Shown here: piece after piece, positions 3,475 through 63,825 of the stretch
How the letters are laid out: the number at the start of each line of letters is the position of its first letter
Position numbering within the stretch: the stretch's first letter is position 1
NCBI RefSeq assembly: GCF_035083965.1
Contig: NC_089740.1
Location: 12,106,052 to 12,170,051 of the forward strand
Reading direction: 5' to 3'
DNA length: 64,000 bases
Source: Branchiostoma lanceolatum
Lineage: Eukaryota > Chordata > Leptocardii > Amphioxiformes > Branchiostomatidae
Notes under the pieces: model-generated
Seen by the model: only the letters and a program-made list of their open reading frames with translations
What the model was told of the DNA's origin: nothing
The model's database searches: none
Made by a program: the position numbers and the translations under genes

Positions 3475-6400
3475 ATGGCGGAAAGTATTGATACCAGAGG
3501 AACTTTTCACCAAGTGGAGCCCTTTGAGGACAGTGGTGCGGAGACCAGCGTAGCCATTTTGGAACAGTTAGAATGGGAAGAAGAGCAGAGAAGAGAGAAG
3601 GAGAGGGGGAGATGTCGCTGTCATTGGAAATACCCCTGCACGATCCCTGGGATTGTGAAAATCGTGGAAATGGTAAGAAAACAAGCGCTAACTGTTTTGT
3701 AATGTTAGTAGGGCGCACTTTGTATTAGGCGCACGTACGTTCAAGTGTTTCTAACCCGTCTAAATCGGTATACACCGAAGTCGCCTGGTAGAATCGCAAT
3801 CGCTTACGTAAAGCATATCTGTGTCTTTCACTCTCTACGATACTGAAAACAATCAAACGGCTGTAGATGTTGAGATATTGAAACTCGACTAGCTTGTTTC
3901 TTATTTTTAAATCCGAGGGCTAGCTTAGCATGGAAAGTCGCCAGCGCTCGGAATGTGAAAAACGCTCGGCGTGCCACGGCAGGCATATATGGCAGTGGAG
4001 TTCATTTGAGATGTCGGACCTATATTCAGCGGAGACAAGCACTGCAGTTAAAAATAAACATGACATATTGACGAGAAATACGCGAACTGTACGACCACGC
4101 CTATCTTATACTAACACACCCCCTCCCACCAGCCGCTATGTCATATCCTGTTGGGCTTCAAAACTGCAACGTATAGGAAGTGCTTAAAACTTAACACGTA
4201 TCTGCTAGTCGCTTGACACCTTTTTGCGATAATGTTGTTTGTAAACAGTTCATGTACGTGTTGAAACAACATTTGTAGTGTTGACAAGTCGCGTCAACAA
4301 CAGACTAAATATGGTGATGCTCCTGTTTTGAGATAGTCATGAGTAACCTTTTCTTGACACGGTGGTCGTACAGTTGTTTCGTCTATAATGTTCGGTTTCG
4401 AAGAGTTGCCAGCGTTCACTCTAAAAAGGTAACGCACCAATTCGATGGCTGAGCGCCAATTTGTGGCTTGTTTTGCGTTCGGCCCTTTTTCGGAAGAGTG
4501 TCGATGTTGTAACCGAGGTCTGTGATTCATTCTGACTAAAACTAGTGACTCATTCTGACAAAAACTATTCATGTTACGTCGAATCTGGGAAACGTTTCAA
4601 GTGTAGATTTGTGCTCGAGGATGTTTTCCCCTCAAACATAATTTGGAAGGAAAGCGAAGCTGATAACACTTTAGATCTTCCTCCCTCTAGAAAAATACAA
4701 TTTGAGGGAATGTAAACAATAACATCACGTCCAACCGAACTGTCAATCGTGACTAATTGGGTCAAAGTTCACAGATAGACGAGGGTGCCGTCAAGTTCAA
4801 TGTCTCTTGATTGGACAACGCCTTTTGTCTCTTTGACATACTAGCTATATAGTACTTCACCTTGGTAATGTAAGTTTTGGCATTAAACGTCTATTTTTGT
4901 ATGTAATTTGATAGCTTTCGTGGGAATGTGTTCACAGTTTAAGAAAATGTTGACGTTGGTAACAGGAACACTTTCCTCAAAGTACAAATCTTCAAAGAAC
5001 CGTTTTGAGGACGATTTTGGTGCCGATTCTAGATTTCAAATGACGCTTCGAAAGCAAACGACTTAGCTTGGAGATATGGACATTAATCCAAGAAGAAAAT
5101 TGTCAGTCCTCTTCTGGAGGAATTTTTTCAAATCATTAAGCAACTTAACTGCATTATAACACTACAAATAGTTTTCTCTGCAGTCTCAATCAGGTTCAAA
5201 CGAACAATCATTTAGCAGAGACGGGGGACGTTATAGACTTCCTTACACTTGTACGTGAAGTCACGTGCCTTTATGGCCACACACCTTTAAGTCATTCGAA
5301 CATGATGAGGATTGCGATACTGACAGCTAGCAATTTAGCTAATCAGTGCTGTGCTTTACTAATCTTTTTCCTGTACATGTAAACATATTTTCTGTTTTCC
5401 CCCAACAGATCCTTGACATGATCGCGTTCCTGTGCGTGGCGTGCTCTGATTGGTACTCCGACTTCCACTCGACCTATCGCTTCTTCGAGTTCGTGTCCAT
5501 GACGACCTTCTGGATCACCTTGACCCTGATGGTGCTGTACATCACCTTGACTATCTTCATGTGCCCAATCAACTGGTCACTCTTCGTAAGTATCAGTATT
5601 TGTTTGTTTGTATGTGCCTTTATTTACACTAAAAATTGGTATATTCGGCCATCAGGGCCGATTTTTATAGAGGTCGAATTGGCAGGAGTGTCAAGGGGTC
5701 ATTTGGAATTAAAACGTACCGTCTTTACTATCGATAGCAAGAATAGATAATTATGTTTAGCCATACCTAGTATGGCTCAACATATTGTTATGTTTAGCCA
5801 TACCTAGTATGGCTCAACATATTGTTTTTGTTCATGTTCTTCTCCTCCTGCCAAATCTTCAAATGGCTTCTACTCCGCCATTTCTTAACCAACCGACCTG
5901 AAATTTGGTGTGGAGGTTAAGATGGCAAATACCCCCAGACCCTTTTTTAATTGTTTTGGTACAGGCCTTAAAATTCATTTTATGGAGGTTTTTTGGGGCA
6001 TTTTTAGACAATAATGACATTTTGGGCTCCTGTGGCCTGGTTTTACAAGCAAATGACCTGACATTCGGTACAAGGGCGCCTTGAACATGTCCCTACAGGA
6101 TTTCAATCACAATTCTGGTGTACATCACTTCAGAATGCTTCATTTTGGGGACTTTTGGACCCATTTTCAGACCAAAAACAGGCCAAAAGTGGTATCCACG
6201 TTCCATGTTCTATTTGCTGCTGGCCAAGGAATCCATGTTCTATCTAAGGATCCCCGCGTTCCATTTGCTACTGGCCAAAGAACACTGTTCTATTTAGGTC
6301 ACCTGAGGTCATATTGCAGGAACACACGCAAGCCTTTGCAGTAAGAAGCTCTTGGGGTCTCGCAGAACTTGTAGAGAGAGTTTTTGTACGGGTGATTTTG

Positions 6401-8519
6401 GAACAGTCCATTTATGCATCAGGAGGGAGATTGTCGAAGTATAATGCTCTCGCAAATGTTGCCTTTCTACATGCAGTTAATATTTCGATTTGCCCAGGTG
6501 TTATTTTGGGACAGCCCACTTCTTGCATGGGGAGGAGTATGGCTAAACATGCTGTATTTGCTCAGGGGCAAATGACGGCCTTTCTAGTTTTTGTTCATGT
6601 TCTTCTCCTCCTGCCAAATCTTCAAATGGCTTCTACTCCGCCATTTCTTAACCAACCGACCTGAAATTTGGTGTGGAGGTTAAGATGGCAAATACCCCCA
6701 GACCCTTTTTTAATTGTTTTGAAACAGGCCTTAGAATCCATTTTATGGAGGTTTTTTGGGGCATTTTTAGACAATTTTTATATTTTGGGCTCCTGTGCCC
6801 TGGTATTGCAAGCAAGTGACCTGAAATTCGGTACAAGGGTGCCTTGAACATGTCCCTACAGGACTTTAATCACAATTCTGGTGTACATTACTTCAGAATG
6901 CTTCATTTTGGGGACTTTTGGGCCCATTTTCAGACCAAAAACAGGCCAAAAGTGGTATCCCCGTTCCATGTTCTATTTGCTGCTGGCCAAGGAATCCATG
7001 TTCTATCTAAGGATCCCCGTGTTCCATTTGCTACTGGCCAAAGAACGCATGTTCTATTTAGGTAACCTGAGGTCATATTACAGGAACACACGCAAGCCTT
7101 TGCAGTAAGAAGCTCTTGGGGTCTCGCAGAACTTGTAGAGACAATTTTTTTTTGCACGGGTGATTTTGGAACAGTCAATTTATGCATCGGGAGGGAGATT
7201 GGTGAAGTATGATGCTCTCGCAAATGTTGCCTTTCTACATGCAGTTAATATTTCGATTTGCCCAGGCATTATTTTGGGACAGCCCACTTCTTGCATGGGG
7301 ATTAGTATGGCTAAACATGCTGTATTTGCTCAGGGGCAAATGACGGCCTTTCTAGTGTTGATTATGATTCTATACCTCGCGTTTCAGAATAATTTTCATG
7401 TGTTTCGTACACTACTTTGAGAGAAAAAAATCAATTTAGAGAGATTTTGCACAAACTGAGGGCCAATCAAAACATTCGTCGTCATCTTACACATTTACCA
7501 AACATATTTACCAAAATGTACCCTGTGTTTTCGGGTCTTTTTCAGGAGTTTATCTACTGCTGTATAGCAGTCATCCTGTACATCTTTGCCTCGTGTTTCT
7601 TGGCAGCAAGAGCTTACAACATCGGAGGACTAGCGGCGGGAACGGTAAGACGTCTGCATCTGATATCATTGGGGTGCCTCAAGGGTCGATCTTGGGTCCC
7701 CTATGTTATAACATGAAGCTGTCACTGCGTCATCAGTTTACATTTTAAAATTCCTTTCCGATACAAGTAATATGCACGCATTGAATTTTCAACTAATCCT
7801 TCGGCCCGTTCTTCAGAAATATTGACCCACAGCCACGTGACCTTACGGTTTCAGTACTGGGTCAAAAGAATGTTGAGTTCGTTGCTGTTGTTGTTGTTGT
7901 TGGATACATAGATCTTTTCTGCGTTGTTCTACATGTTAAAAAACAAGAAAGGAAACGTAAGAAAAACCTGAAATTGTTCCAAAGAAGACTTGAATAATCA
8001 GTGCAGCTGGTGTGCTGTTGTTCTGCCAGCATCATTTAGAACTACTCTAACTAAAGATCTAGCCGGCTGTATGGTCAACGGCAATGCGCCAACTATGTGA
8101 GGCCCGCTCTAATTGCACTCTGAAATCTTACCCTGACTTCTCTCCATCTGTAGGTGTTTGGTTTCTTTGCTGCCATTGCGTACGCGGTGGGTGCGCTGGT
8201 GTCGTGGTGGGAGTGTCGGCACCCCGAGTGGGACCTGCGCGGACTTGGGGAGGAGGACTCCTGGCTGCGCGGCGGAACGCCCTGGTGGGCACCCGAGATC
8301 CAGGCCAAACGTCACCCCAGAGTCGTCAGTACGTAAAACTTTGCCAATTGCTTTGATTAAGTCATTAAAAAACTAGACTAAGCGTGGCTGCTTGACGTTT
8401 CCGGGCGATTTTGTCAGTCAATTTTTTTGCGTTTACATACATTTTCACTGGGTTTTTCGTATTCTCCAAGCAGAAGTGTGTATGTGCGTGCGCGCGCGCG
8501 TGTGTGTGTGTGCGTGCGT

Positions 8520-24775: not shown

Positions 24776-24790
24776 AGGCGGAAGTGACGT
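24776..24790 (-). promoter_or_regulatory. ETS/CRE-like site upstream of MCC
   Basis: GGCGGAAGTGACGT combines an ETS-type GGAAGTG with TGACGT, typical of CpG-type animal promoters. It lies about 480 bp upstream of the MCC start codon and directly next to the boundary of the foldback element. The stretch 24,305-24,775 shows no gene and is probably MCC 5' UTR and core promoter. Confidence 0.35.
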
Positions 24791-24983
24791 TTAAATCCGA
24801 GCCGTCGTGTTACGCGCCGATTTGAGGCACAAGACATGGTCACGTAAAAACTCAATAGTCCTCGAATGAAAGGCCAAATCATGCATATAAATGTGTCCTC
24901 GTAATGTCAAGACGTTCCTCAAGCCCCTGCAATAAAGCGGGGTATCTAAACTTCTCCAAGAAGCAAGATTTCTCGAGTTAAAG

Positions 24984-25175
24984 ATGACCCATTTTCCAAG
25001 GTTTTCCCTATGGTTTAAGTATTACACTCCGGACCAAGAACGCACCATATGGGGGTTTCGCGGCATGTGGTTTGAGGGCGACACTCCACTGTTTCCGGGT
25101 CACACTCAGCGTGACGCAGAATACTGGCAAGACAAAGCAAATGAAATGTTTCGTGTTGATTCTGATGACAGTTGA
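24984..25175 (+). other. Unassigned 63-codon open frame inside the left terminal repeat
   Basis: ATG-started frame, rich in W/F/Y/D (for example WGFRGMWFEGD and AEYWQDKANEMF), so its composition looks protein-like. The mirrored right end does not keep the frame. It could be a decayed exon captured by the element or chance. No domain recognised. Confidence 0.2.
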
Positions 25176-25229
25176 CTGTGTTCGGGCGGGAAGCGCGCAA
25201 GGAGGCGGCCCAGTACACGTCTTAAAGTA

Positions 25230-25430
25230 ACGATGGCATTGTATATAATGTTCTGGCACACTTTCTAGTTATACTGTTAAAACTTTTGGCTTTTATACCC
25301 TCCGAATTATAACTTAAAACCGTTCCGTTGACAACGTTAAGATTGCATTATCAAACAGGTTATACCCGCCAACTTAAGACAGGTTTGATACTGTTCTTTA
25401 GCAAAACTTCGTAAGTGTTCTATAACATAC
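25230..25430 (+). repeat. Array-flanking block, copy 1
   Basis: About 200 bp resembling about 28,350-28,540 in the same orientation. Shared landmarks: GGCATTGTATATAATGT, CACACTTTCTAGTT, CTTATACCCT / TTTATACCCT, GATTGCATTAT / GAATTGCATTAT and CTAACTTAAGAC / CCAACTTAAGAC. Confidence 0.8.
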
Positions 25431-28095
25431 TTAAAATACTTTTCCGTTTCACGTCTGTACCTATATGGGTGTACACACGCCCTTTAGAAGGCAAGGTTGA
25501 AATTGGGTCAATGGAATGACCCAATTCTAAAAGGAAAACTTTCCGTACTACGTCCGTGCCTACATTGTTGTACACACGACCTTGAGAAAGCAAGATTGAA
25601 ATTGGGTCGATGGAATGACCCAATTCTAAAATGAAAACTTTACGTTTGACGCTCGTGCCTATATGGGTGTACACACGCCCTTGAGAATGAAGGTTGAAAA
25701 TTGGGTCAATGAAATGACCCAATTCTAAAAGGAAACTTTTCCGTCCTACGTCCGTGCCTATATGGGTGTACACACGCCCTTGAGAAAGCAAGGTTGAAAT
25801 TGGGTCAATGGAATGACCCAATTCTAAAATGAAAACTATTCTGTTTGACGTCCGTGCCTATATGGGTTATACACGCCCTTGACAAAGCAAGGTTGAAAAT
25901 TGGGTCAATGAAATGACCCAATTCTAAAAGGAAAACTTTCCGTCCTACGTCCTTGCCTACATGGGTGTAACGTTACACACGCCCTTGAGAAGGCGAGGTT
26001 GACATTGGGTCAATGGAATGACCCAATTCTAAAATGAAAACTTTTCCGTCCTGCGTCCGTGCCTATATGGGTGTACACACGCCCTTGGGAAAGCAAGGTT
26101 GAAATTGGGTCCATGGAATGACCCAATTCTAAAATGAAAACTTTCCGTCCTACCTCCGTGCCTACATTGTTGTACACACGACCTTGAGAAAGCAAGGTTG
26201 AAATTGGGTCAATGGAAATTCTAAAAAGAAAACTTTCCGCCCTACGTCCGTGCCTACATTGTTGTACACACGACCTTGAGAAAGCAAGGTTAAAATTGGG
26301 TCGATGGAATGACCCAATTCTAAAATAAAAACTTTACGTTTGACGCTCGTGCCTATATAGGTGTACACACGCCCTTGAGAAGGCGAGGTTGACATTGGGT
26401 CAATGGAATGATCCAATTCTATAATGAAACTTCTCCGTCCTACGTCCGTGCCTATATGGGTGTACACACGCCCTTGAGAAAGCAAGGTTGAATTTGGGTC
26501 AATGGAATGACCCAATTCTAAAATGAAAACTATTCTGTTTGACGTCCGTGCCTATATGGGTTATACACGCCCTTGACAAAGCAAGGTTGAAAATTGGGTC
26601 AATGAAATGACCCAATTCTAAAAGGAAAACTTTCCTTCCTACGTCCGTGCCTACATGGGTGTAACGTTACACACGTCCTTGAGAAGGTGAGGTTGACATT
26701 GGGTCAATGGAATGACCCAATTCTAAAATGAAAACTTTTCCGTCCTACGTCCGTGCCTATATGGGTGTACACACGACCTTGAGAAGCCAAGGTTGAAATT
26801 GGGTCAATGGAATGACCCAATACTAAAATGAAAACTATTCTGTTTGACGTCCGTGCCTATATGGGTGTACACACGCCCTTGAGGAGCCAACGTTGACATT
26901 GGGTCAATGGAATGACCCAATTCTATAATGAAAACTTTTCCGATTGACGCCCGTACCTATATGGGTGTACACACGCCCTTGAGAAAGCAAAGTTGAAAAT
27001 TGGGTCAATGGAATGACCCAATTCTAAAAGGAAAACTTTTTTCGTCCTACGTCCGTGCCTACATGGGTGTAACGTTACACACGCCCTTGAGAAGGCGAGG
27101 TTGACATTGGGTCAATGGAATGACCTAATTCTAAAATGAAAACTTTTCCGTTTGACGTCCGTGCCTATATGGGTGTACAAACGACCTTGAGAAGCCAAGG
27201 TTGACATTGGGTCAATGGAATGACCCGATTCTAAAAGGAAAACTATTCTGTTTGACGTCCGTACCTATATGAGTGTACACACGCCCTTGACAAAGCAAGG
27301 TTGAAAATTGGGTCAATGAAATGACCCAAGTCCAAAATGAAAACTTTCCGTCCTACGTCCGTGCCTATATGGGTGTGTACACGCCCTTGAGAAGGCGAGG
27401 TTGATATTGGGTCAATGGAATGACCCAATTCTAAAAGGAAAACTTTCCGTCCTACGTCCGTGCCTACATTGTTGTACACACGACCTTGAGAAAGCAAGGT
27501 TGAAATTGGGTCGATGGAATGACCCAATTCTAAAATGAAAACTTTTACGTTTGACGCTCATGCCTATATGGATGTACACACGCCCTTGACAAAGCAAGGT
27601 TGAAAATTGGGTCAATGAAATGACCCAATTCTAAAAGGAAAACTTTCCGTCCAACGTCCGTGCCTACATGGGTGTAACGTTACACACGCCCTTGAGAAGG
27701 GGAGGTTGGCATTGGGTCAATGGAATGACCCAATTCTAAAATGAAAACTTTTCCGTTTGACGCCCGTACCTATATGGGTGTACACATGCCCTTGAGAAGC
27801 CAAGGTTGAAATTGGGTCAATGAAATGACCCAATTCTAAAATGATAACTTTTCCGTTTGACGTCCGTGCCTATATGGGAGTACACACGGCCCTGGGAAGC
27901 CAAGGTTGAAATTGGGTCAATGGAATGACCCAATTCTAAAATGAAAACTTTTCCGTTTGACGTCCGTGCCTATATGGGTGTACACACCCGCTTGAGAAGG
28001 CGTGGTTGAAATTGGGTCAATAGAATGACCCAATTCTAAATGAAAACTTTTACTTTGACGCCCGTGCCTATATGGGTGTACACACGCCCTTAAGC
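25430..28095 (-). repeat. Satellite array, left arm (about 100-bp unit)
   Basis: Roughly 27 units. Each contains the mirrored core AATTGGGTCA-6 bases-TGACCCAATT, the palindrome GTGTACAC and a GACGTC/TACGTC site. Many units are 99-101 bp, so long repetitive frames stay open (recurring peptide HSIDPISTLLSQGRVYTHIG); these are not genes. A variant with GTGTAACGTTACAC recurs at about 25,967, 26,659, 27,066 and 27,673, showing higher-order structure. Confidence 0.95.
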
Positions 28096-28345
28096 CGGCG
28101 TCAATATTCATGCGAGCGTCGGCCGAATTCGTAGATCGCCCAAAGCTCGCCGAATTTCAAAATCGCCCGAGCATATTTAGATCAATTTGATTTCTAGAAA
28201 TCGACCGAAGCCAGCGTAATCGACAGAACGTCGACCGTCCTTCGGCCGAAAATACCCATTTGGAGCTCGCCGACACGTCGGCCGAGCTTAATTCTTGATT
28301 TGTGACGGGGGTTTAAGATGGCAAGGTTAAATTGCGTCAATAGAA
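28096..28345. other. Unique core between the satellite arms
   Basis: GC-richer sequence with repeated GCCGA/TCGGC words (GCGTCGGCCGAATTC, AGCTCGCCGA, ACGTCGGCCGAGC). No open frame of interest. Confidence 0.4.
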
Positions 28346-28349
28346 CGAG

Positions 28350-28545
28350 GGCATTGTATATAATGTCCTAACACACTTTCTAGTTTACACTGTTTTCAGC
28401 TCTTATACCCTGAAAATCATAGCTAAGAGCGTTCCTTAAGAACGTTTAGAATTGCATTATTAAGCGGGTTCTATCCGCTAACTTAAGACGGGAAACTCTT
28501 GTTTGGAAAAGTTTGTAAGTTCTATTCCATACGTGTGAGTTTTCA
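28350..28545 (+). repeat. Array-flanking block, copy 2
   Basis: Direct (not inverted) relative of 25,230-25,430. It is followed by degenerate satellite units to about 28,790 before the regular array begins. Confidence 0.8.
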
Positions 28546-28789
28546 TTGTTAGGAACTTACGGTCGTACACTGTAAGGACGGAATGTTTTTTGCACTCTTA
28601 GTGGCTTTTGTGTAATTTATACCCATATAACTTCTTTCCAAGCAGAGGTCATGGGGGAAGATTGACTTTTTTTATCATATGCCTCGTTGGTTATACACCC
28701 ACTTAGGACGGACAATTCTTTTATGTCCGAACTGTTGCGATCCTTTGAAGCGGTTTCAACTTTGCACTCTTAAGGGATTGTTTATATAC

Positions 28790-31700
28790 ACTGGTCCAAT
28801 TTCAACCGTGCATTCTAAAGGGCGTGTTCATACCCCTACAGGCACGGATGTAGGACGGAAAAGTTTTCATTTTAGAATTGGGTCATTCCATTGACCCAAT
28901 TTCAACCTTGCCTTCTCAAGGGCGTGTGTACACCAATATAAATACGGACGTCAAACGGAAAGTCTTTTATTTAGGAATTGGGTCATTCCATGGACCCAAT
29001 GTCAACCTTGGCTTCTCAAGGGCGTGTGTACACCCATATAGGTACAGACGTCGAACGGAAAAGTCTTTGTTTATAGAATTGGGTCATTCCATGGACCCAA
29101 TGTCAACCTTGGCTTCTCAAGGGCGTGTGTACACCCATATAGGCACGGACGTCAAACTTAAAAGTACTTCATTTCAGAATTGGGTCATTCCATAGACCCA
29201 TTTTCAACCTTGCCTTCTCAAGGACGTGTGTACACCCATATAGGCACGGATGTAGGACGGAAAAGTTTTGATTTTAGAATTGGATCATTCCATTGACCTA
29301 ATGTCAACCCTGGCTTCTGAAGGCCGTGTGTACACCCATATAGGCACGGACGTCAAACTTAAAAGTACTTCATTTTGGAATTGGTTCATTCCATAGACCC
29401 AATTTCAACTTTGGCTTCTCAATGTCGTGTATACACCCATATAGGCACAGACGTCAAACGGAATGTTTTCATTTTAGAATTGGGTCATTCTATTGACCCA
29501 ATTTTAACCTTGCCCTCTCAAGGGCGTGTGTACACCCAACATAGGCACGGGCGTAGGACGGAAAAGTTTTCATTATAGAATTGGGTCGTTCCATTGACCC
29601 AATTTCAACCTTGCCTTTTCAAGGGCGTGTGTACACCCATATAGGTACGGACGTCAAACGGAAAAGTTTTCATTTTAGAATTGGGTCATTCCATTGACCC
29701 AATGTCAACCTTGGCTTCTCAAGGCCGTGTGTACACCCATATAGGCACGGACGTCAAACTTAAAAGTACTTCATTTCAGAATTGGGTCATTCCATAGACC
29801 CATTTTCAACCTTGCCTTCTCAAGGGCGTGTGTACACCCATATAGGCACGGATGTAGGACGGAAAAGTTTTAATTTTAGAATTGGATCATTCCATTGACC
29901 TAATGTCAACCTTGGCTTCTGAAGGCCGTGTGTACACCCATGTAGGCACGGACGTCAAACTTAAAAGTACTTCATTTTGGAATTGGTTCATTCCATAGAC
30001 CCAATTTCAACTTTGGCTTCTCAATGTCGTGTATACACCCATATAGGCACAGACGTCAATAGAATGTTTTCATTTTAGAATTGGGTCATTCTATTGACCC
30101 AATTTTAACCTTGCCCTCTCAAGGGCGTGTGTACACCAACATAGGCACGGACGTAGGACGGAAAAGTTTTCATTATAGATTTGGGTCGTTCCATTGACCC
30201 GATTTCAACCTTGCCTTTTCAAGGGCGTGTGTACACCCATATAAGTACGGACGTCAAACGGAAAAGTTTTCATTTTAGAATTGGGTCATTCCATTGACCC
30301 AATGTCAACCTTGGCTTCTCAAGGCCGTGTGTACACCCATATAGGTACGGACGTCAAACGGAAAAGTTTTCATTTTAGAATTGGGTCATTCCATAGACCC
30401 ATTTTCAACCTTGCCTTCTGAAGTGCGTGTGTACACCCATATAGGCACGGACGTTAAACGGAAAAGTTTTCATTTTGGAATTGGTTCATTCCATAGACCC
30501 AATTTCAACTTTGGCTTCTCAATGTCGTGTATACACCCATATAGGCACAGACGTCAAACGGAATGTTTTCATTTTAGAATTGGGTCATTCTATTGACCCA
30601 ATTTTAACCTTGCCCTCTCAAGGGCGTGTGTACACCAACATAGGCACGGACGTAGGACGGAAAAGTTTTCATTATAGAATTGGGTCGTTCCATTGACCCG
30701 ATTTCAACCTTGCCTTTTCAAGGGCGTGTGTACACCCATATAGGCACGGACGTAGGACGGAAAAGTTAAAGTTTTAGAGTTGGGTCATTCCATTGACTCA
30801 ATTACAACCTTGCCTTCTCAAGGGCGTGTGCACACCAACGTAGGCACGGGCGTAGGACAGAAAAGTTTTTGATTATAGAATTGAGTCATTCCATTGACCC
30901 AATTTCAACCTGGCCCTCTCAATGGCGTGTGTACACCAACATAGGCACGGACGTAGGAAGGAAAAGTTTTCATTATAGAATTTTGGTTCATTCCATTGAC
31001 CCAATTTCAACCTTGCCTTTTTAAGGGCGTGTGTACACTCATATAGGCACGGACGTCGAACGGAAAAAGTTTTCATTATAGAATATTGGGTCATTCCATT
31101 GACCAAATGTCAACCTTGCCTTTTCAAGGCCGTGTGTACACCCATATGGGCACAGACGTCGAACGGAAAAGTTTTTATTTTAGAATTGGGTCATTCCATT
31201 GACCCAATTTCAACCTTGGCATGTCAAGGGTGTGTGTACACCCATATAGACACGGACGTCAAATGTAGAAGTACTTCATTTTAGAATTGGGTCATTCCAT
31301 TGACTCAATTTCAACCTTGGCTTCTCAAGGGCGTGTGTACACCAACATAAGCACGGCGTAGGACAGAAAAGTCTCTGATTTTAGAATTGGTTCATTCCAT
31401 GGACCTAATTTCAACTTTGGCTTCTCAATGTAGTGTGTACACCCATATAGGTACGGACGTCAAACGGAATGTTTTCATTTTAGAATTGGGTCATTCCATT
31501 GACCCAATTTCAACCTTGCCCTCTCGAGGGCGTGTGTACACCCATATAGTCACGGACGGCAAACGGAAAAGTTTTCCTTTTTTTGAATTGGGTCATTCCA
31601 TTGACCCAATGTCAACCTTGCCTTCTCAAGGGCGTGCGTACACTCATATAGGCACGGACGTAGGACGGAAAAGTTTTGATTTTAGAATTGGGTCAATCCA

Positions 31701-31995
31701 TTGACCCAATTTCAACCTTGCATTCTCAAGGGCCTGTGTACACCCATATAGGCACGGGCGTCAAATGGAAAAGTTTTCATTTTAGAATTGGGTCATACCA
31801 TTGACCCAATGTCAACCTTGGCTTCTCAAGGTCGTGTGTACACCCATATAGGCACGGGCGTCAAACGTAAAAGTTTTGATTTTAGAATTGGGTCATTCCA
31901 TAGACCCAATTTCAACCTTGCTTTTTCAAGGGCGTGTGTACACCCATATAGGCACGGACGTCAAACGGAAAATTCTTTCATTTTAGAATTGGGTC
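28790..31995 (+). repeat. Satellite array, right arm (about 100-bp unit)
   Basis: Roughly 32 units, the reverse complement of the left-arm unit. Blocks recur at about 600 bp (GGATCATTCCATTGACCTAA at about 29,283 and 29,884). The array stops abruptly at ATTGGGTC near 31,997, where the right terminal sequence begins. The open frames over it are repeat artefacts. Confidence 0.95.
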
Positions 31996-32606
31996 TGCTT
32001 TCATGAAGGTTGCCTCCAGAGTGCCGAAGCCACCGTCTTCTTTGGGCTTCTCCAACTTTTACCGGAACTCAGCCCCCTATGTCTCAACTGCTTCTGAGCA
32101 TATACGTACAAGCTTACCGCAGCGAGCACAGACACTTTTAGGTGACGTATGCCCGGTAGGTGTCGTCTGTTCCGTACTGGGCGCCCAGTAAGGAGCCGGT
32201 TACATTTGTTTATTTGCACTGCATGACAAATTCTAAAATAAGAAAAGTATTCTAACATATCTTTGGATAGAACGTGAAGATTGACCACACTTCCGTGTTC
32301 GGCCGCAAGCCCTTCTGCTACGACCCGGAAGTAAATTACGCCTGATAATGCTGAAACGGTAGCACGGAAACCCCCATGCAGTGCGAAATCTACGACAGAA
32401 TTTAACACAAGAAGGCTCATTTGGGGCCAACTTTGAGTGTGCAAATCTCGTTCGAAAATTATATTTGGATCTCCAAGTGTATCGCAGGAGCTTAGACAGC
32501 TTCTTGACATTACAGGGACACAGTTATATGCATGATTTGGCCTTTCGTGCGAGATCTATTGAGTTTTTACGTGACCATGTCTTGTGCCTCAAATCGGCGC
32601 GTAACA

Positions 32607-34060
32607 GCCGTCAGATAGAAGCGCCACCTATCAAAATATGAATGCTAACCATATTGCAGGAGCTTGATGGATTACTCATCAGGTAACCTAATACCGCATT
32701 ATATATATTATTGAACTTTATATAATACATGTACCACCAAAGTAATGCAGATGCATGTTTATATGAATCTAGCATAATAGGGATGGAATACCCTTCGTTG
32801 AAAGACCAGAATATCAAGAATTTATCAAAACTACTAGCAAATTAACTTGTTTTCACATTTTTATGATTTCATTCCCATTTGCTGTGGAATTTCCGTTTGC
32901 CTTTTTTGTCGTTTTTTTTTTAAACTTTTTTTTAATTCAAAAGTAAAATGTCAGCCATCTTTTCTTTTTTTAGTGCACGCGATTCAATATAACGCTCATC
33001 GTATCGTGACAGTTATCGGACTTTGGACCTCACGCGTTCATTCAATATGATTAAGGGCCCGGCAGTCACGTTCGTCGTTCCTATAGGTTTACTACAGGAC
33101 GTCACGGTCATCCGACAGTCGTAGGTTCGTCCTGCAAAATTCGGCTGTCTTGTGACAAGTTTGTAGATATAAACTGCAGCTGCCACGGTCAAAGATATAA
33201 ATCTAACTGCTGCATAAACACACGTGACATGTGAAACTGTGTGAGTACAGGCTGGTCTCATTCGTCATACGATATATCAAATTTAGTTATAGATTTTATG
33301 ATAGTGACTGCAAGCTCAGAGGCAGCCGTGGATGAGTAATACAAGATCTAGTTGTCTCGTGACCGAAAAGATCGTCGTATATCCTTGTTATTGTCGGGTC
33401 TGGCATAGTCGCTGAAGGTGCAAAAAATCGGGCGACGACTCACTATACGTACGGATGTGACAGCGACTTTTATCTCACGGTCATTGGTTTGCAATAAATG
33501 TTCTTCACGCGATGAGCAATCAGCAACGCACCAACACAGACCATTCCAGCAGCCATTTTTCATGCAAATGGTGAAATTGAGATTTTATTTTCAGATTTAC
33601 AAACGATTTCTTTTTCGAAGTTTCTCATTTTGACGTTATCTTACGTAACGGGTGGATCTTTTGAATTGCCGGCACCGATAAGAAGTCAATTATATTATAG
33701 TCTGCCCGCTACTCGCACGGTTGCGTAATGATATACCAAAGGACATCGTTGCCATTTATGACATCTATACATTGCCGAAATGAGAAAATGAATTGAACGG
33801 CGGATGGTAAATGCTTGGAAAGTCCACCAAATTTGGTGAATTTTCTCAATTAAATAAACAAACAAATAAGAACCTGATGGAAAAAATGAAGAGCTACGTG
33901 AATTTTCCTTCAGAGTTAAATGCACTGAATAGATAAAGTTTCCTACAACTTTTTTTAATTGTTTAAGAAAGTTCCGGAATCGGTAAAAAGCCTTGCAGCT
34001 GTTTGGGGCAAATCGCCTCATACTCACGACTCGTCATAGCATGACGTAATACACAGGAAT
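32607..34060. other. Intergenic region between the foldback element and the ZFAND promoter
   Basis: A/T-rich. Short frames on both strands, including a minus-strand frame at 33,695-34,027, show no motif or convincing splice sites. No gene called. Confidence 0.4.
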
Positions 34061-44545: not shown

Positions 44546-44721
44546 TAGCCTCCGTTGTAGACTCTTTCCGGCTGTTTCCTTTTTCAAGTTGCAGTTTTAC
44601 TTTTACCTTTTTTTTTCTTATTGGAGACTCCTTCCCGGCCAACAATAAGAAGAAAAAAATGTAATAGTAAAACTGTAACTTGAAAAAGGAAACAGCCGGA
44701 AGGAGTCTGCAACAGAGGCTA
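44546..44721. mobile_element. Foldback MITE with arms of about 55 bp
   Basis: The left arm starts TAGCCTCCGTTGTAGACTC. The right arm mirrors it and ends GAGTCTGCAACAGAGGCTA. About 55 bp pair with few mismatches and the centre is partly mirrored too, so nearly the whole 176 bp can fold into one hairpin. Confidence 0.85.
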
Positions 44722-50138: not shown

Positions 50139-50343
50139 GGCCTCTAACAGGCTCCTCTGATCGCTGGGAAAATAGTAGAAATCGACCAAATAGAGTGAAT
50201 AGTATGCCAAGGGTAGTCCGCTATGCAGGGAAGTTGGTCGCCTATTGAACTTCCCTGCATAGCGGACTACCCCTGGCATACTATTCATTCTTTTGGCCGA
50301 TTTTTACTATTTTCCCAGCGATCAGCGGAGCCTGGTAGAGGCT
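50139..50343. mobile_element. Long hairpin element with arms of about 95 bp
   Basis: The left arm (CCTCTAACAGGCTCCTCTGATCG ... GGACTACCC core as TAGTCCGCTATGCAGGGAAG) is mirrored by the right arm after a loop of about 12 bases. Pairing covers almost all of the 205 bp with few mismatches. Non-coding. Confidence 0.85.
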
Positions 50344-54319: not shown

Positions 54320-54438
54320 CCTCCACAGCTTGTCCCGTTTGATACATTATGTTTGGCTCTCTTACGCGCATCAGTCTCTGAGACCACCCAACCTTCGGAT
54401 GTTCAGGTTTTTGTAGTCGTAAATTTGAGTGTTTGACG

Positions 54439-55183
54439 ATGGAGGGTCTAACCTCAGTTCTATTACTGTTGCTTTTGATTATTGGGACAACGGGCGATAC
54501 AGTTAGGCTTGGGGTTATTCTTGAGGATGGTTCCTCACAACCATATTCGTACGGTTATGTAGCTCCGGCCGTACAACTCGCAGTAGACCGGGTCAACGGC
54601 GAAGGATGGCTCGGACCGCACCAACTGGTGGTACAGTACCAGAAAATAAAAGACCTGGGACAGTATGCGGCCATGCAGGTGGCTATGGGGATGTACTACA
54701 ACAACAGCGGGTCCAAACCGGACGCTTTCCTGGGCCCTACCTCGCAGTTCCCGGCACAGACTGTCATCCGTCTCGCAGCCTTTTGGAAGGTTCCTGTCAT
54801 GACCTGTTCGATCGTTTGGCTCCTGGGACGTAAAAACGACCCTCGAGACAACGGAAATTATGAAACGGTCATCAGAACGGTGGCCACCACGGGCGAACTT
54901 GGACAGGTAGTGCTACAGTTATATAGCCGTTATAACTGGACGCGAGGGTTCCAGTTCTACCACCAGGGGGAAAACGACGACGACCTGTGTTACTTCGTCC
55001 AGTCAGGCATTTGGTCGGAGTGGGGACAAGCGGTCTCTGAGAACCAGAGCTTGGAGGCCCTATCGTTCGAGTCCATCGGAGAGTTCAACCAAGATGATTA
55101 CGATCTGACAAACCCTGATGGTGTGAGGAAGGTGGACGAATTGTTTGCTGATGAGTTGAAACGAATGAGTGAACTTTCAAGGG
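54439..55183 (+). CDS. Receptor first exon A: natriuretic-peptide-receptor-like ligand-binding lobe
   Basis: One intact coding exon of 248 codons plus one base. Signal peptide (hydrophobic Leu/Ile run, about residues 5-18), then a type I periplasmic-binding/ANF-receptor fold start (TVRLGVILEDG, YGYVAPAVQLAVDRVN). NPR-like landmarks follow: AFLGP at about 97, VIRLAAFWKVPVM, a glycosylation site in NWTRG, and LCYF at about 188. Such receptors are membrane guanylate cyclases or clearance receptors. The donor is G|GTACGT at 55,184, phase 1. No downstream exon of its own is found before exon B at 57,163. The same phase fits the acceptor at 62,551, so this may be an alternative first exon of the gene below, or an orphaned tandem duplicate. 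The GP-x-C cysteine conserved in exon B and in vertebrate NPRs is absent here (GPTS). Confidence 0.82.
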
Positions 55184-55201
55184 GTACGTACATTTTTGAC
55201 T

Positions 55202-55204
<3 letters not shown>

Positions 55205-55271
<67 letters not shown>

Positions 55272-55690
55272 ACGCACACGCACACGCACACGCACACACA
55301 CGCACACTACACTACACGCACGCACACACACACACTACACACACACACACACGCGCGCGCGCGCACACACATAAATACACATGCACACACACACACAAAC
55401 GCACACACACATACACACACACTCACGCGCACACACAGACACACACACACACACACTTCACGCAGATACACACGAATACACACACACACACACCACATTG
55501 AGGGAGACTCGGAAAGAAAGAGGTAGAGAGGGACACACACACACACACACATGCACATACAGACACACAAACACACAGACACATAGATAGATACAAACAG
55601 GCGTACATACACACATTTATGTATATAAAGACAGACAGACAGACAGACAGACACACAGATATATGCACGTACGTACATACACACACACAA
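55205..55690. repeat. Large (CA)n / (CACACG)n microsatellite
   Basis: Begins about 20 bp after the donor of exon A: pure CA, then CACACG hexamers, then mixed CA/GACA tracts. Long H/T and C/V frames here are artefacts. Confidence 0.97.
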
Positions 55691-57162
55691 CAGTAGCCAC
55701 ATCATTCCTACTAATTCTATTTTATTTAAGGGAAGTGACGTCATTGCCTCAATCAGGATCATATCATAAAACATGTGTATTTCTTGTAGCAGATTATGTA
55801 CCGTTTAGTACCTTGGTCGGTGGACTTTGACCCACCCTCTGTATATAGTCCACCTTCTAGATTCCCTGGCTTTGCGGCAACAGGATTCATTGTTCTATCA
55901 CTATCGTTGGTAATCGCTTCTCGACTAGGCACTGGATAAATGTGTACATTATAAGTACACCATAAATCGAACCACGGATTGTTTTGTGATTTATCACTGA
56001 TCGGTTATTTACTTATTATCACCCCTTCTTTTATTCATTCTTGTTTCCTGTCTAGTTCTATTAGGTCCTGCATGATGAATTAAAGTGTGTATGTCCGTTA
56101 CCACCCATGCTCCTAGAAATGATGCAAAACATGTTGCACGTTCTTTATTTGCCCAAAACCACTGTGCAATTGGGAAATGATACCATCCTTCCGATTTTAA
56201 ACGTACAAGGTGTTGGCCTTGTAAAGGATGCATCGATCCTGTTGCCAACACCTCTCAGATTTCAGTCTGTGAAGTTTAATAAATAAAAGATGGTTTGCAT
56301 CAAGTTGAGCCGGGGGGAGCTGTGTTACTATCATAAATTGTTGTTTATTTTTTCAGATAAAGATGTTGTTTATTTGTTTAGTGAAATCTTTGCCAATTCA
56401 GGTACATGTATGCTAAACTATAAAGATCAGGTTCGCACTTCTTTGTATGCACTAACTTTACTGATGTGCTGTATCGGGGAGTTAGCCTGGGTGTCGTCCT
56501 CCGTAGTAACCACTCCCGCAATCTTTTCGCTTTCTAATTCGTGGTTAGCAAGCGAAAGGATTGAGCCAGCGGAGGATGGCATCCAGGCTTTTGGGGAGTA
56601 CAGGCAGTCAGTAAATACTAGAACAGGGTATAATTCCAGAAGAAAACAATGCCCATAGTATATCAGCCCACATTCTTTCGGATTTATATATACCTGCTTT
56701 CAGTAGGTGGTTTTCAGTGTTGTATCAGGCTGCCCGATTCGGAGAACCACTCGAAGAAAACGTGAGATTCTGCAAAATACCACTGCCCATACAATAATCT
56801 AGTTATAAAAGGATAAAAATAACGTCGAAAGCCAGAAGAGTGCTTCAAATCTGGGAATATCTCAGCTAGTTACACAGTCTAGGGGGGCAGCGGACAACAG
56901 TTATAACACCATATATCTTTCTCTTCACAAAACAACTCAAAACACTCTAACGGGTACTTGAGCACGATGTGGTGATGCCAGGCCCTCTAGTTTCTGCCTT
57001 TTTTAATTAAAAAGTCTCTTCTAGGTAGTATATTGATGGCTGTTTACTGCTGTCTTTAAAATATGACTATCACGGTGTGAGGCACTCAGAAGGAAGTGTG
57101 ATCTTGTAGGGAAGGCAGTGGTCAAAGTTTTTTGGAGAATCGCTGTTAGGATTAAGTCGAGG
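55691..57162. other. Region between receptor exons A and B
   Basis: No coding exon recognised. It contains the short MITE at 56,483-56,589. A TATA-like motif is not obvious before exon B. Confidence 0.45.
56483..56589. mobile_element. Short inverted-repeat element (MITE), family TAGCCTGG
   Basis: Starts TAGCCTGGGTGTCGTCCTCCG and ends CGGAGGATGGCATCCAGGCT. Same ends, length and central AGCGAAAGGA-type word as the element at 2,033-2,142. Confidence 0.7.
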
Positions 57163-60100
57163 ATGGCGTTTCGTGGCATGTGTGCGGTTGGTATTGTGTT
57201 AGTGTTGTTCTTGGTGGTAGAGACTAAAAAGGTGGATGTTGTACTCGGTGTCCTATTGGAGGACGATCCTAGGTTGCCGTACTCCCTGGCAAGGGTGGCC
57301 CCGGCAATCCAGCTAGCAGTGAACGTGGTAAACAAACGAGCTTCGCTGGGATCTCTACGGCTTGCCCCTCGTTTTGTCAGCAACTTACGCTGCGAGACGT
57401 TTTCCATGCAAGTAGGCGCCATGGCAATGTACTACGAACACCAGAAGGGTCAACACCACTGCAGCAAGGACAGGAATAGACCCTCCGTACTGCTGGGCCC
57501 AAGCTGTGACTTCCCCGCCGCTTCTATAGTACGGTTAGCCTCCTACTGGAACATTCCGTCTATGACTGTTGCCGTACCCTGGGCTCTGCAGAACAGACGA
57601 GAAGACGCTTACAAGACTAGTATAAGAACGTCTGTGTCGTCGGGGGAGGTCGGCAGGTTCGTCCTACGCGTTCTAGACAAGTTTAACTGGACACGATCGT
57701 TTTCTGTGGCCAGCCACGGTGGCGGGCCAGGGAACCACACATGTTACTTCCTCGTCCGGGGAATCTATGACGAGTGGAGGGTCAGAGAGGGAGTAAACGT
57801 CCAAGCCAATGTCTTCAGTGAGTTCCAAGAAGTCGATTTTGATTTGGAAAGTGAAGAAGGTTTGAGTCGCCTCGATGAAAAACTTCGGAACACGATGACT
57901 GAAGCTAAGGGAAAGGCTAGAGGTAAGACTACTTCAAGTGTTGAATATTACTGATATTACAAACTCTCATTGCCCCAACCGTACTATTTCCATGATATTA
58001 CAGACTCCGTATAATGGTAGCGTGCGTAGTCCAGTAGTTAACGATCTTGCCTCTGGAACTAGAAGCCCCGGGTTCGATCCCGACTGTGTCGCTCACCCGA
58101 CATGCACGCTACCGGAAAGGGTCGCAGTCGGGACGGGACGTTAAGCCCTGGTCCACTGTTCATTGTGCTTGTCGAAAAGAGCTAGGGGAATTTCCCCGGT
58201 ACAATGAACCTGTAAATACTGTACATAGCGTCTCTCTTCTCTGTCACGACCAGTGGAAGATTAGCTCATCTGTTCATTGAGTTCATTTGAGCTAAACTGG
58301 TTCGAGATCACTTTCCTTTCATTTCACTCCCATTGCCCCAACCGTACTATTTCCATGGGTGTCATCCATAACGTCACTTTTTTTTTACTGTTCTGGCATA
58401 ACCTTGGTTGGAAATTATTGATAATGGTACATCAAGTACACTTTGCACAATGACTTACTAGTAGTAAGGGGAAGTACTAGTGTCGTGGTATCTTTAAATA
58501 ATGCAGAAACTTTCTTTCTCATTATATACACATTGGGCATAGTCATTAAGTTATTTTTAGTGATTATGCAGGAAAAAGGAATACCGGAAAGCTAGGAGTG
58601 AGTTTGTCAATGGCGGCTCGTGTATGCCATCTTTTGTGCCCGAAATACACAGTGTAGGATTCATAAAAAGGTCACTTCTTGCAACTTGTGAATCCAATGT
58701 TGATTAGCAATGTTCAACATCATGAGCATTATGAAGTTGGCTTCTTTGGCTTCATCAAATGATTGTTGAAATGAGTATTGAAATGTTTGTTTACGTTACA
58801 AAAATGCCATTTACAACATTCTAGACTACTCACTGAAAGCTAGCTCCACTTGCCAAAAATAGTTACCCAATCAACTGGATAAGATTTTGAAAATCTTATC
58901 CAGTTGCTTGAGTAACTATTTTTGGCGTATTTTACTACCTGGATATCTAACTTTCATCAACGTAGCTCCACTTGATGTTACAGCATTCACCTGCTTTCAA
59001 GGGGCTAGAAACATTCCTAGTTGCTAGCGACAGCGACTTCTACGTGCTCCAGATCACAAAGCCTCCTCAAAATGTCCCTAATATAGGCTCAAGGGTCAAG
59101 GTTGAGCATAGGTATAGTGTCGACTTTCTCGAAATGTTTCGTCGTTGGGTTTTCACAAGATGAAAACTATTGGCAAGGCTTGAAACCACCGAAAGACATG
59201 TGGTAAAAGAGTGGAAGGGTGATGAAATAACCCGCACAGCGTAAGGAGAAGCAATTCTAATTTAATTTTGGCACACACCACGCATATATCACGATGACAG
59301 AAGGCAAACTTTGTGAGCCACTTCAAGCAGGTAATATTTGTCAAACCCACGTGTACGTGTTCACCTCAAGCGTCACCAGGAGGCAGCAGACTTTTATTCT
59401 CTTCTTGTCCAATTCAGTTACTGCTACTTTAACGTCACCTTGATTTATAACATAACAACTGTCTGCGGAATATTGATAATTTCCGTGTTTAGTAACCTTT
59501 TGTACGTTATATACGTTTGAAGTTGGAACAGGTGGCCCATTTAACAATTCTCAAATATGTTTTACTCGCTTTCGCCTACCCTCAGACGCCGTTGATGTTT
59601 TAACGTCGCTCACTTCGATTTATAACAGTCCTAGAAGCCTGTCTGGGTTATATTAATTGTTTCCGTGTTTAGGAACCTCCTTCCTGGTGATATATTTCAT
59701 ATTGAGGAACAGGTGTTCCATTTAGCAGCTCTAAAATACGTTTTACTCGCTTCTACTTAAGTCCAGACGGCGTTTGTGTTTTAGCGTCATTCACTTCGAT
59801 TTACAACGTCCGGGGATAGTTTCCGTGTTTAGGAACCTCTGCCCTGGTTGCACATCTATATGGATTAACAGCTTGTCCCTTTAACAGTTTTCACGTTCTG
59901 CAGATCATGACAGAAATATTTTACATTCTAAGTGTGGACGTCAAACGACGATTGTTTACTTAGTCGTTTGTTTGTTTGTTTGTGTGTTTTACTTGTTTAT
60001 CATGGGCCAATCCCTTCTGTCGAATGTGGTGATATTCAACGTGCAGAAAGTTACTATCTATTTTGGACACTGTGTTGTCGATTTAGTTTATAATTAGGCC

Positions 60101-60927: not shown

Positions 60928-63825
60928 GCGTGTGCGTGTGCGTGTGCGTGTGCGTGTGCGTGTGCGTGTGCGTGTGCGTGTGTGTGAAGAATGCCTGCAT
61001 GGATTGTTTTCATATTTAGTCGGTAAGCAAGTCTTGGTGAGACCTCTAAACTTTAGATTTCGGGCCCCCTGGTAACTTTCTATGGTACTGGAGCAGAACT
61101 TCCAGTTTTAATATCTCGTGTTCTGAACATGTACATGCAATGGCCCTGCTTTGTTTTATCATACACTGAAATAAATCCTTTAAACGTGGTGCCATTTCTT
61201 TTGTCTTCATTATCTTAAATACTCATACGCCAAATATCATATTGGGAAACATTACAGACAATAATCTTTTACATCTGGGATAAACGCGCGCCAAATCCCA
61301 TGGCCTCAGCCTGCTTTGTTTTGTCATACATTGCCATAAGTCCGAAGGCGTTGCCATTTCTGATCATCATTTCTCCTTCTTCTTTAAAATATTCATACGA
61401 CAACATAGGTGCACCAGAAACCCAAATAGTGCAATGTTTATCCACATGATTGATAAACAAACCCCTCTCCTTTACTTTTACCCGAGTAAAAAATTAACGT
61501 TATAAAGATAAAATGCAACCTTTGACAGGAGGTGTGTCCCTCTGACGTCACCACTGCCCTTTGTACAAAGGAGACCTTATGTGTGACTTGCGTTAATGCA
61601 ACACTTAAGGGGTTAAAGGTCGACACAGTGATTTTTTCTGTCATTACGCAATGGTGCTTACATATCAATATGTTTGTAAGTTGTTAAAGGTGGATGTATT
61701 CAACACATTACCATATTGTATGGAAAACAGTGACATGATCCAAGTTGCATACACATACGAGCGTACGTTTGTATTAGATGAACGCATTTATCAGTTTATT
61801 ATTCAAGTAATCAAAGGCGTTGTACTAGTGAAAAAAAATTTAATCAATCAATCTACACATCATATTAGGACTATTGTCACATTTAACATTTTCGTATGTT
61901 CATCAGGTATTCATTCGAATTTGACGGCATACGAGTTTTACGGAATACACAGGAGTTTTACAAAATACATACGAATTTTGAGGAATCCATACGAGTTTTA
62001 CAGAATACATACGAATTTTACGGAATGCATACGATTTTACGGAATTCATACGAGTCTTACTATTAGTAAGGATCGTATGGATTCCGTAAAACTCGTATGA
62101 ATTCCGTAAAATTCGTATGAATTCCGTAAAATTCGTATGAATACTTAGACACCCCTGTTCATCGGTACTACCAGTGGACTAGCCCATGCTGTAGTGCTTG
62201 TCCTGCTCTATACACTGAAAGGCGTGGAAAGGATTTTAACTTAACTGAACTTAACTGTTCTTCTGTAAAAACGAGACATTGTTTTACATTCCTGACACAT
62301 CTACATCTACATCTACATTGAATACTATCATCATATACTACACAGAATACTATCATCGTCATCATTACATTGTATACTGTTTTAGCCGTTAGAATACACA
62401 TTATTAGATCGATTGATATTCATGTTATAGATAAGTTCTTTGTAATTGTTAAATATTAGAAATAGTCGATTTTTATGTATCTACAAATTGCCATACATTG
62501 TACTCGTTACAATTATCGCGCAATAAAGTTCTTCTTCTGTACCCCACCAGTGATCATCACGTGCGCCAGCGCCCCCTATGTGTGGCGACTGATGAAGGTA
62601 GCCGGCCAGATGGGCATGACCAATGGAGACTACGTCTTCCTCATCTTGGACATGTTCGACCACGCCTACCTCCAGCGGGAGACTTGGGTCGGATCAGAAG
62701 ACAACCTGCAGGAGCAACAGGACGTCTTAGACGCCTTCCGCGCCGCCTTCATTATCACCGTCCCCCGGCCAAACACAGCCACCTTCAGGAACTTCTCCGA
62801 ACAAGTCCGAAAAATAGGGGACCAGAACTTCGGCTTCGACTCACAAGAAACGTTGGTAAGTGACGTCATCAGAGTCTGATAATGTTCTTATAACGCAATG
62901 AAAATGACCTTCATGTGCATAGCAAACGTTTCCGCAAGATGTCAAACTTGCCTGAAAACTGATTGCGCATAAAAGTCTGCTAGGTTGTGTTAAAAGAGCC
63001 TTGTTTTCCAGAACCTGCCAATATGATGAAACTATTCGTGATCTTTTTAATCTGTCTGATCATTTTTTGCGGCAATGTGACGACAAAACTTCAACGTTGT
63101 AAAGCCGTGTTAGTGAATGTTGTTGATATTTTCTCCAGGCAAACCCGTTTGTGGAGTCTTACTACAACGACGTGATGCTGTACGCAACCGCCTTGAACCG
63201 CACGCCCGGCTATAACTACAGCAACGGCACAGAGATGGCTCTGAGAATGCGCAACCTTTCCTTCACCGGTAAGGAACCTATCATACCTTGGCCGAGTTCT
63301 TTGAGCACAAGCAGTTGACTTCGTCAGGGCGAAATGAATGCTGCTACTTTGACTCGCTAGGGAGCGTTGCGGTCAGAATGCATGCGGTGCCAACTAACCT
63401 CACATTAGAATGAACTTGAGAAAACTTAAGCCCCTGTCACACTTGTGCGTATATACAAGTCCGCATGAGTTGCGTATTAACATGTTTCTGGTTTAGGTTA
63501 AGTTTGCAGCCGAAGAAGTTATTTCTTAGGTTCGATCACTTGGCTGCAGAATGGTGGGTCAAAGTATAAAACAACTTTGTCCCCGCAAACTTTACTTAAA
63601 CCAACAAAAATGTTGATGCGCAACTCACGCGCACTTCAATATACGCACAAGTGTGACAGGGCCCTTACGTGAATGTACAAAGAAATATGTGCATCTCTCT
63701 CGTATATATATATACGCTTTTGTATCGACACAGGCGCAGACGGAGAGGAGGTCGTCGTCAAGAATGGAGATCGTGTCTTTGACTTCATCGTCTTGGATCT
63801 GAACCGTTCAAGCGAAAGTTTCGTG
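57163..63825 (+). CDS. Natriuretic-peptide-receptor-like protein, extracellular part (3' end outside window)
   Basis: Exons 57163-57922, 62551-62855, 63139-63268, 63734-63825; phases join, 429 codons so far. Signal peptide (MAFRGMCAVGIVLVLFLVV), then the ANF-receptor/type I periplasmic-binding fold: VDVVLGVLLEDD, RVAPAIQLAVNVVN, VLLGPSCDFPAASIVRLASYW, FNWTR (N-glycan site), HTCYFLVRGIYDEW. The second exon starts VIITCASAPYVW and contains GMTNGDYVF, as in NPRs (VIMCASS, GMTSGDYAF). The fourth contains KNGDRVFDFIVLDL, matching the NPR block around NGDRYGDFSV. The transmembrane, kinase-homology and cyclase parts, if present, lie beyond the window. ATG 57,163 is the first in frame. Whether it is a guanylate cyclase or a clearance-type receptor cannot be decided here. 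Confidence 0.88.
58015..58325 (+). mobile_element. tRNA-derived SINE (family B), fullest copy
   Basis: tRNA-like head with A-box-like TAGTCCAGTAGTTAACG and B-box GGGTTCGATCCCG. The body contains CACCCGACATGCACGCTACC and GGTACAATGAAC, with the tail GAGCTAAACTGGTTCGAGATC. Partial copies at 14.8 kb and 15.9 kb show it is a family. The core resembles lancelet Deu-type SINEs as I recall them. Confidence 0.75.
58326..59390. other. Receptor intron 1, left part; includes a perfect hairpin
   Basis: No exon found. Contains the short palindromic element at 58,852-58,926 (arms GCCAAAAATAGTTAC and GTAACTATTTTTGGC, inner arms CAACTGGATAAGATTTT mirrored). Confidence 0.55.
58852..58926. mobile_element. 75-bp palindromic element
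   Basis: GCCAAAAATAGTTAC...CAACTGGATAAGATTTT is followed directly by the mirrored arm. Only a few bases in the loop and one small arm offset are unpaired. Confidence 0.8.
59400..59900. repeat. Three-copy tandem repeat of about 160-180 bp
   Basis: TTCCGTGTTTAG(T/G)AACCT recurs at 59,481, 59,661 and 59,821. Each copy is preceded by TTTAACGTC/TTTTAGCGTC and GATTTATAACA/GATTTACAAC, and followed by GGAACAGGTG and TTTTACTCGCTT. The copies are diverged. Confidence 0.8.
60095..60215 (-). repeat. Dispersed repeat related to the window's first 140 bases
   Basis: The reverse complement of this segment matches bases 1-140 (CTTCTGTGGCCTAA-type end, GATGTCATCCAT, GCGCTCATTAATTTTCGCC). Confidence 0.65.
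60851..60984. repeat. (TG)n / (TGTGCG)n microsatellite
   Basis: Pure TG followed by GTGTGC hexamers. Composition is complementary to the (CA)n/(CACACG)n tract at 55.2 kb. Frames across it are artefacts. Confidence 0.97.
61040..61170. repeat. Dispersed repeat, copy 2 (relative at 2.2 kb)
   Basis: GGGCCCCCTGG, TGGTACTGGAGCAGAACTTC, ATGCAATGGCC in the same order as at 2,305-2,395. Confidence 0.6.
61908..62144. repeat. Hairpin built of mirrored short tandem repeats
   Basis: Units of about 18-20 bp reading CATACGA(G/A)TTTTACGGAAT run rightward to about 62,060, turn at CTTACTATTAGTAAG, then run mirrored as ATTCCGTAAAACTCGTATG to 62,144. The left arm is longer and more diverged than the right. Confidence 0.9.
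62145..62550. other. Intron immediately upstream of the common receptor exon 2
   Basis: Nothing coding seen. It ends in a pyrimidine-rich acceptor (CTTCTTCTGTACCCCACCAG at 62,531-62,550). Confidence 0.6.

Follow-up and report, generated by a model that had tools for sequence, protein, structure and literature searches.

A probable foldback-like DNA transposon with opposed satellite arrays in Branchiostoma lanceolatum

The sequence considered here is a window of 64,000 nucleotides (the whole stretch of Branchiostoma lanceolatum DNA that was analysed), in which positions 24808-32606, i.e. 7,799 bp, are taken up by an element with inverted ends and two opposed arrays of a tandemly repeated monomer (table 1). 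Elsewhere in the window, three open frames (54382-55374, 57067-57954 and 62466-62879) match the ANF receptor ligand-binding family, which suggests, as far as sequence similarity goes, a cluster of natriuretic-peptide-receptor-like genes; USHBP1-like and Ras-like matches are also present, and two direct copies of a segment of about 790 bp, 94% identical, are found at 5824-6610 and 6587-7378. A small foldback-like structure lies at 61928-62142, where a 20-bp unit forms opposed arrays of 6.7 and 3.5 copies with 12 bp between them, and three palindromic stretches of about 175-250 bp, at 50140-50342, 44546-44721 and 63424-63670 (with 89, 84 and 74% identity, respectively, between each stretch and its reverse complement), are possibly MITE-like.

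Table 1. Components of the element and of its immediate flanks, in window coordinates.
Feature	Position	Strand	Basis
Left target-duplication copy, GCCGTCG	24801-24807	+	Flank comparison, 6/7 against the right copy
Left terminal inverted repeat, 51 bp exact	24808-24858	+	
Left flanking domain (about 370 bp), likeness to the right arm fading inward	24859-25228	+	
Repeat X, first copy	25229-25430	+	Direct repeat; copies 75% identical
Left satellite array, 26 full monomers of about 100 bp	25438-28091	+	
Insertion of about 220 bp within the last left monomer	28095-28317	.	
Repeat X, second copy	28344-28532	+	
Decayed inner edge of the right array	28533-28795	-	Earlier part by eye only
Right satellite array, 31 full monomers of about 100 bp, inverted relative to the left array	28796-31995	-	
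Right flanking domain (about 560 bp)	31997-32555	-	
Right terminal inverted repeat, 51 bp exact	32556-32606	-	
Right target-duplication copy, GCCGTCA	32607-32613	+	Flank comparison

The ends of the element read TGTTA...TAACA, and the description given in an earlier, sequence-only reading, namely 51-bp identical inverted ends that diverge inward, is borne out: beyond the 51 exact base pairs, 100 of 145 alignment columns (69%) are identical when unit bases 52-190 of one arm are compared with the inverse of the other. At such a rate, 51 identical bases would occur with a probability of about 6e-9. By BLAST, 24784-24990 and the inverted 32424-32627 are 76% identical over 208 columns, in an alignment that takes in about 24 bases external to the element end. 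Identity of the 51-bp ends, against 69% over the next 140 bp or so, fits a constraint on the ends; it is as if only the ends were held constant, a pattern that would follow from a transposase having to bind both of them. Within the window, the first 20 bases of the terminal repeat, with up to 3 mismatches allowed, match the two element ends only, and 100 shuffles gave no occurrence. No viral contig among those searched contains the exact 20-base end, and in prokaryote genomes it is matched in one bacterial contig, where the resemblance stops there (by eye) and is taken as chance. A literature search with the end sequence returned no match, by which absence from print is not claimed, and 24808-28808 (4,001 of the 7,799 bp) gave no useful match to phage records.

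The near-perfect target duplication of 6-7 bp proposed at the same time also stands. The flanking words GCCGTCG and GCCGTCA are identical at 6/7 positions, with the mismatch adjoining the left end, and a match of at least 6/7 is found by chance in 0.19% of site pairs drawn at random from the window (200,000 draws; about 1 in 500). Alternatively, an exact GCCGTC is repeated on both flanks, on the left separated from the element by a further base; an exact 6-mer, shifted on either side by at most one base, is found in 0.14% of random window site pairs. Adjoining words of 5, 6, 8, 9 and 10 bp have at most two matching positions (0/5 for 5 bp; 2, 1 and 2 for 8, 9 and 10 bp, respectively), and the adjoining 4-bp words, GTCG and GCCG, match at 3/4. 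That the inverted ends might extend outward beyond the duplication was rejected, the score of the 40-base outer flanks being reached by 590 of 2000 random pairs.

Internal to the terminal repeats, the flanking domains are alike when one is inverted, with a likeness that is patchy beyond base 190; counting the end repeats, the sequence outside the arrays amounts to about 630 bp (left) and about 610 bp (right). A repeat of about 200 bp (repeat X) is found on either side of the left array and, since its copies are direct and not inverted, the two halves of the interior do not simply mirror each other. The possibility that repeat X consists of decayed monomers was not retained: it is missed by the monomer profile, and its resemblance to the monomer, equalled in 7 of 500 shuffles, is suggestive only. 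At the decayed inner edge of the right array, monomer matches are found at 28725-28784 and 28787-28864. In the last left monomer, the profile breaks off near 28099 and picks up at 28313, and TTAAG is found (by eye) at both junctions (28090-28094 and 28313-28317). Thus, the split monomer and the repeated TTAAG probably reflect the later insertion of a smaller element, possibly a non-autonomous one of the TTAA type.

The unique parts contain 25 stop-free frames of at least 35 aa, and for the 20 longest of them a Pfam search gave a few weak matches, all under the family cutoffs. The longest frame (184 codons; 32004-32555, minus strand, in the right flanking domain) and an ORF of 63 aa on the left (24984-25175, within the flanking domain) have no Pfam match, and the latter gave, against viral contigs, one pattern match that was not confirmed.

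One satellite, of about 100 bp, makes up about 75% of the element, and the opposite orientation of its two arrays, also claimed earlier, is confirmed, with a period of 100 in both and copy numbers of 26.5 (left) and 31.9 (right) according to Tandem Repeats Finder. The layout is of the foldback type, tandem repeats being opposed within inverted ends, with the arrays internal to the perfect 51 bp. For the comparison of monomers, 57 full units were retained from 115 profile matches (more than 35 bits, at least 80 bp), leaving out the edge pieces (28049-28099, 28312-28355, 28725-28784, 28787-28864 and 31977-31996) and weak opposite-strand profile matches within the arrays. In the window outside the element, the profile matches on the forward sequence all have E >= 5, and a search of viral contigs with the exact 22-base monomer core was without result. 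A derivation of the monomer from the element end was rejected, since the score obtained with the terminal 101 bp of the element (12.5) is equalled by 220 of 1000 Markov shuffles.

The monomer consensus contains a core hairpin, AATTGGGTCA-6-TGACCCAATT, with a folding z of -3.9 (0/200 shuffles), and the 26-bp core is slightly better conserved than the remainder (0.946 vs 0.899). All 10 hairpin pairs are intact in 17 of the 57 monomers and, of 563 hairpin cells, 502 are paired, 61 broken and none compensated, so that a constraint on pairing is not supported. A dyad spanning the whole monomer (equalled by 35 of 1000 letter shuffles) was rejected, as without the 26-bp core it is equalled by 449 of 1000 and no second dyad is left. 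An age order of two monomer types, A and B, was likewise discarded: the identity of same-type monomers between arms exceeds that of different-type monomers within an arm only if the diagnostic first 20 bp are counted.

How the two arms came about can be read in part from the monomers. Mean identity is 84.0% within the left arm, 84.7% within the right and 83.4% between arms, and the left and right consensuses disagree in 2 columns; from the near-equal identities and the small difference between consensuses, both arms derive from one monomer stock. At the same time, the nearest relative of a monomer lies in its own arm in 45/57 cases, against 28.3 by permutation (0/2000). In the right arm, 8 consecutive monomers are at least 92% like those 6 units off (0/1000 order shuffles); the left arm repeats 3 consecutive monomers at lag 7 (4/1000 shuffles at 95%, 34/1000 at 92%), and its own duplications are weaker evidence than those of the right. 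The lag periodicity of mean monomer identity is weak on the left (83/1000 order shuffles) and better on the right (15/1000). Collinear runs between arms do not exceed chance, with 335, 59 and 500 of 500 shuffles equal at 88, 90 and 92%, respectively. Since duplications are found within each arm and inter-arm collinear runs are not found beyond chance, amplification was separate after the arms parted: blocks of monomers multiplied within each arm, more clearly in the right one, and no long stretch has recently passed from arm to arm. Together with the inverted ends and the duplication-like flank, these within-arm block duplications uphold the proposal of the sequence-only reading that this is a single bounded unit, with arms grown by tandem amplification.

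On these grounds, we consider it likely that the element, known here from one copy, is an old, non-autonomous, foldback-like cut-and-paste DNA transposon, moved by a transposase made elsewhere. Given that no coding sequence was recognised in the frames compared with Pfam, the transposase would be supplied in trans by another element; it would recognise the 51-bp ends and perhaps also sites in the repeats, the unit being moved as a whole and inserted with a target duplication of about 7 bp. The arms may have been enlarged by unequal exchange or repair synthesis, processes akin to those discussed in the work on Galileo and Tetris. By analogy with Galileo, the monomers may possibly act as extra transposase-binding sites, a role that sequence comparison does not support, as monomer and end share no sequence beyond chance. 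If so read, the element shows clearly, though in a single copy, how satellite arrays can grow within a transposon, with arms that share an origin and were later amplified separately; if the family were abundant in the host genome, it could provide a route for the spread of a satellite along chromosomes.

Two other histories have been weighed. In one, an ordinary transposon had its interior later invaded by a genome-wide satellite, so that the arrays do not share the history of the ends. The terminal 101 bp indeed show no more likeness to the monomer than chance would give, the between-arm identity is close to the within-arm values, as for two samples of a large family, and repeat X flanks the left array on both sides; however, two opposed arrays between facing ends require two insertions or one inversion, and the monomer is not found in the rest of the window at a forward profile E below 5. 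We hold this history to be distinctly improbable. Still less credible, and in our estimate very improbable, is that there is no single element and that unrelated inverted pieces were brought together by an assembly join inside the satellite. The unequal lengths of the arms and the direct orientation of repeat X speak for a join, and inverted arrays are difficult to assemble, but an internal mis-join leaves the matching 51-bp ends and the flanking duplication unexplained.

If the element is, as preferred here, a non-autonomous cut-and-paste transposon, the kind of transposase it depended on is a further question. Helitrons and Helentrons, which are without target duplication and without a long terminal inverted repeat, were set aside in view of the 51-bp inverted ends and the target duplication; HINE/Helentron insertion, too, occurs without target duplication. 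Dada elements, which are described as lacking terminal inverted repeats and as inserting into small RNA genes, were also dismissed, given the 51-bp terminal inverted repeats; moreover, the window contains neither a tRNA nor an Rfam match that reaches the gathering score. The statement of the sequence-only reading that the ends match no superfamily it could name was too strong: TGTTA...TAACA fits the TGTNR of Ginger elements, and the duplications described are of 6 bp for GingerRoot, 7 bp for Galileo and 4-10 bp for MuDR/IS256, so that GingerRoot-like, P/Galileo-like and Mutator-like transposases may be taken as leads.

An integrase-type element (GingerRoot/IS3EU or Ginger group), which lost its gene and kept TG..CA ends, is a tentative and rather doubtful reading. 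Ginger elements share the TGTNR ends, and the 51 bp fall within the 40-270 bp usual for Ginger1 inverted ends (PMC2836005); GingerRoot has 6-bp duplications and occasional TG..CA ends (PMC10045372), and GCCGTC includes CCGT, which with CCGG is a target word of Ginger1 (PMC2836005). On the other hand, Ginger1 and metazoan Ginger2 duplicate 4 bp, and TDD-4 and TDD-5 5 bp (PMC2836005), lengths at which the flanks match here at 3/4 and 0/5; the ends of IS3EU are always TA..TA (PMC10045372); an integrase sequence is not seen in the element; and satellite arms are not described in the passages on GingerRoot/IS3EU and Ginger1 (PMC10045372, PMC2836005). A Mutator derivative is to be regarded with similar reserve, as somewhat unlikely. 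Most foldback elements are assigned to Mutator by the authors of the Tetris work (PMC4079207), and the range of 4-10 bp quoted for MuDR/IS256 duplications (PMC10045372) keeps Mutator a candidate; against it, no transposase sequence is recognised in the 20 frames compared with Pfam, although a non-autonomous copy has no need of one, and Tetris and Tm1 duplicate 8-10 bp (mostly 9 in Tm1), lengths at which the flanking words match so poorly. A derivative of the P superfamily, to which Galileo of Drosophila belongs (PMC3573991, PMC3688188), is unlikely: the duplications of Galileo are of 7 bp and its ends are long, with internal repetition, but no P-type transposase is recognised in the 20 frames of the element that were compared with Pfam. 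It is quite improbable, finally, that the element represents a new family with an integrase-type (GingerRoot/IS3EU-like) transposase, whose foldback arms turned into true satellite arrays of about 26 and about 31 units; in that case, a transposon outside the Mutator and P groups, which are known for this, would be both nursery and carrier of a satellite.

The layout is already known from a few other elements and, by analogy, the plan most closely recalls those of Tetris of Drosophila virilis and of the repeat-bearing Galileo subfamily. Tm1 of root-knot nematodes (Mutator/foldback), of which both transposase-coding and non-coding copies exist, also has composite ends with tandem repeats, but the duplications are mostly of 9 bp and the repeats of about 14 bp, as compared with 7 and 100 bp here (PMC3169594). 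The oyster HINE/Helentrons, for which satellite spread has been proposed, have in common with the element the association of a mobile unit with a satellite-like array; they differ in that their array is a single one, placed between two modules, and in that they have a 3' palindrome and inverted repeats in subterminal position (PMC7492417). The 7-bp duplication (6/7 here) and the long, internally repetitive ends are shared with Galileo, where the tandem repeats of each end expand independently and hold extra transposase-binding sites, and where internal sequence is recruited into the ends, post-excision repair or ectopic recombination being suggested; the ends of Galileo F have two or three repeat copies, against 26 and 31 here (PMC3573991, PMC3688188). 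Tetris, a non-coding foldback element described with no known autonomous partner, shares with the element a flanking domain, a tandem-repeat domain, a variable middle and the lack of coding sequence, and differs from it in the repeat unit (about 220 bp vs 100 bp), the duplication (8-10 bp vs 7) and the length of the ends (at most 1,735 bp, vs about 3.3 kb on the left and 3.8 kb on the right for end plus array; PMC4079207). In the passages on Tetris, its tandem repeats can feed satellites, the origin of satellites from transposons is linked to unequal crossing over, and the spread of a satellite along chromosomes by means of a transposon is proposed (PMC4079207).
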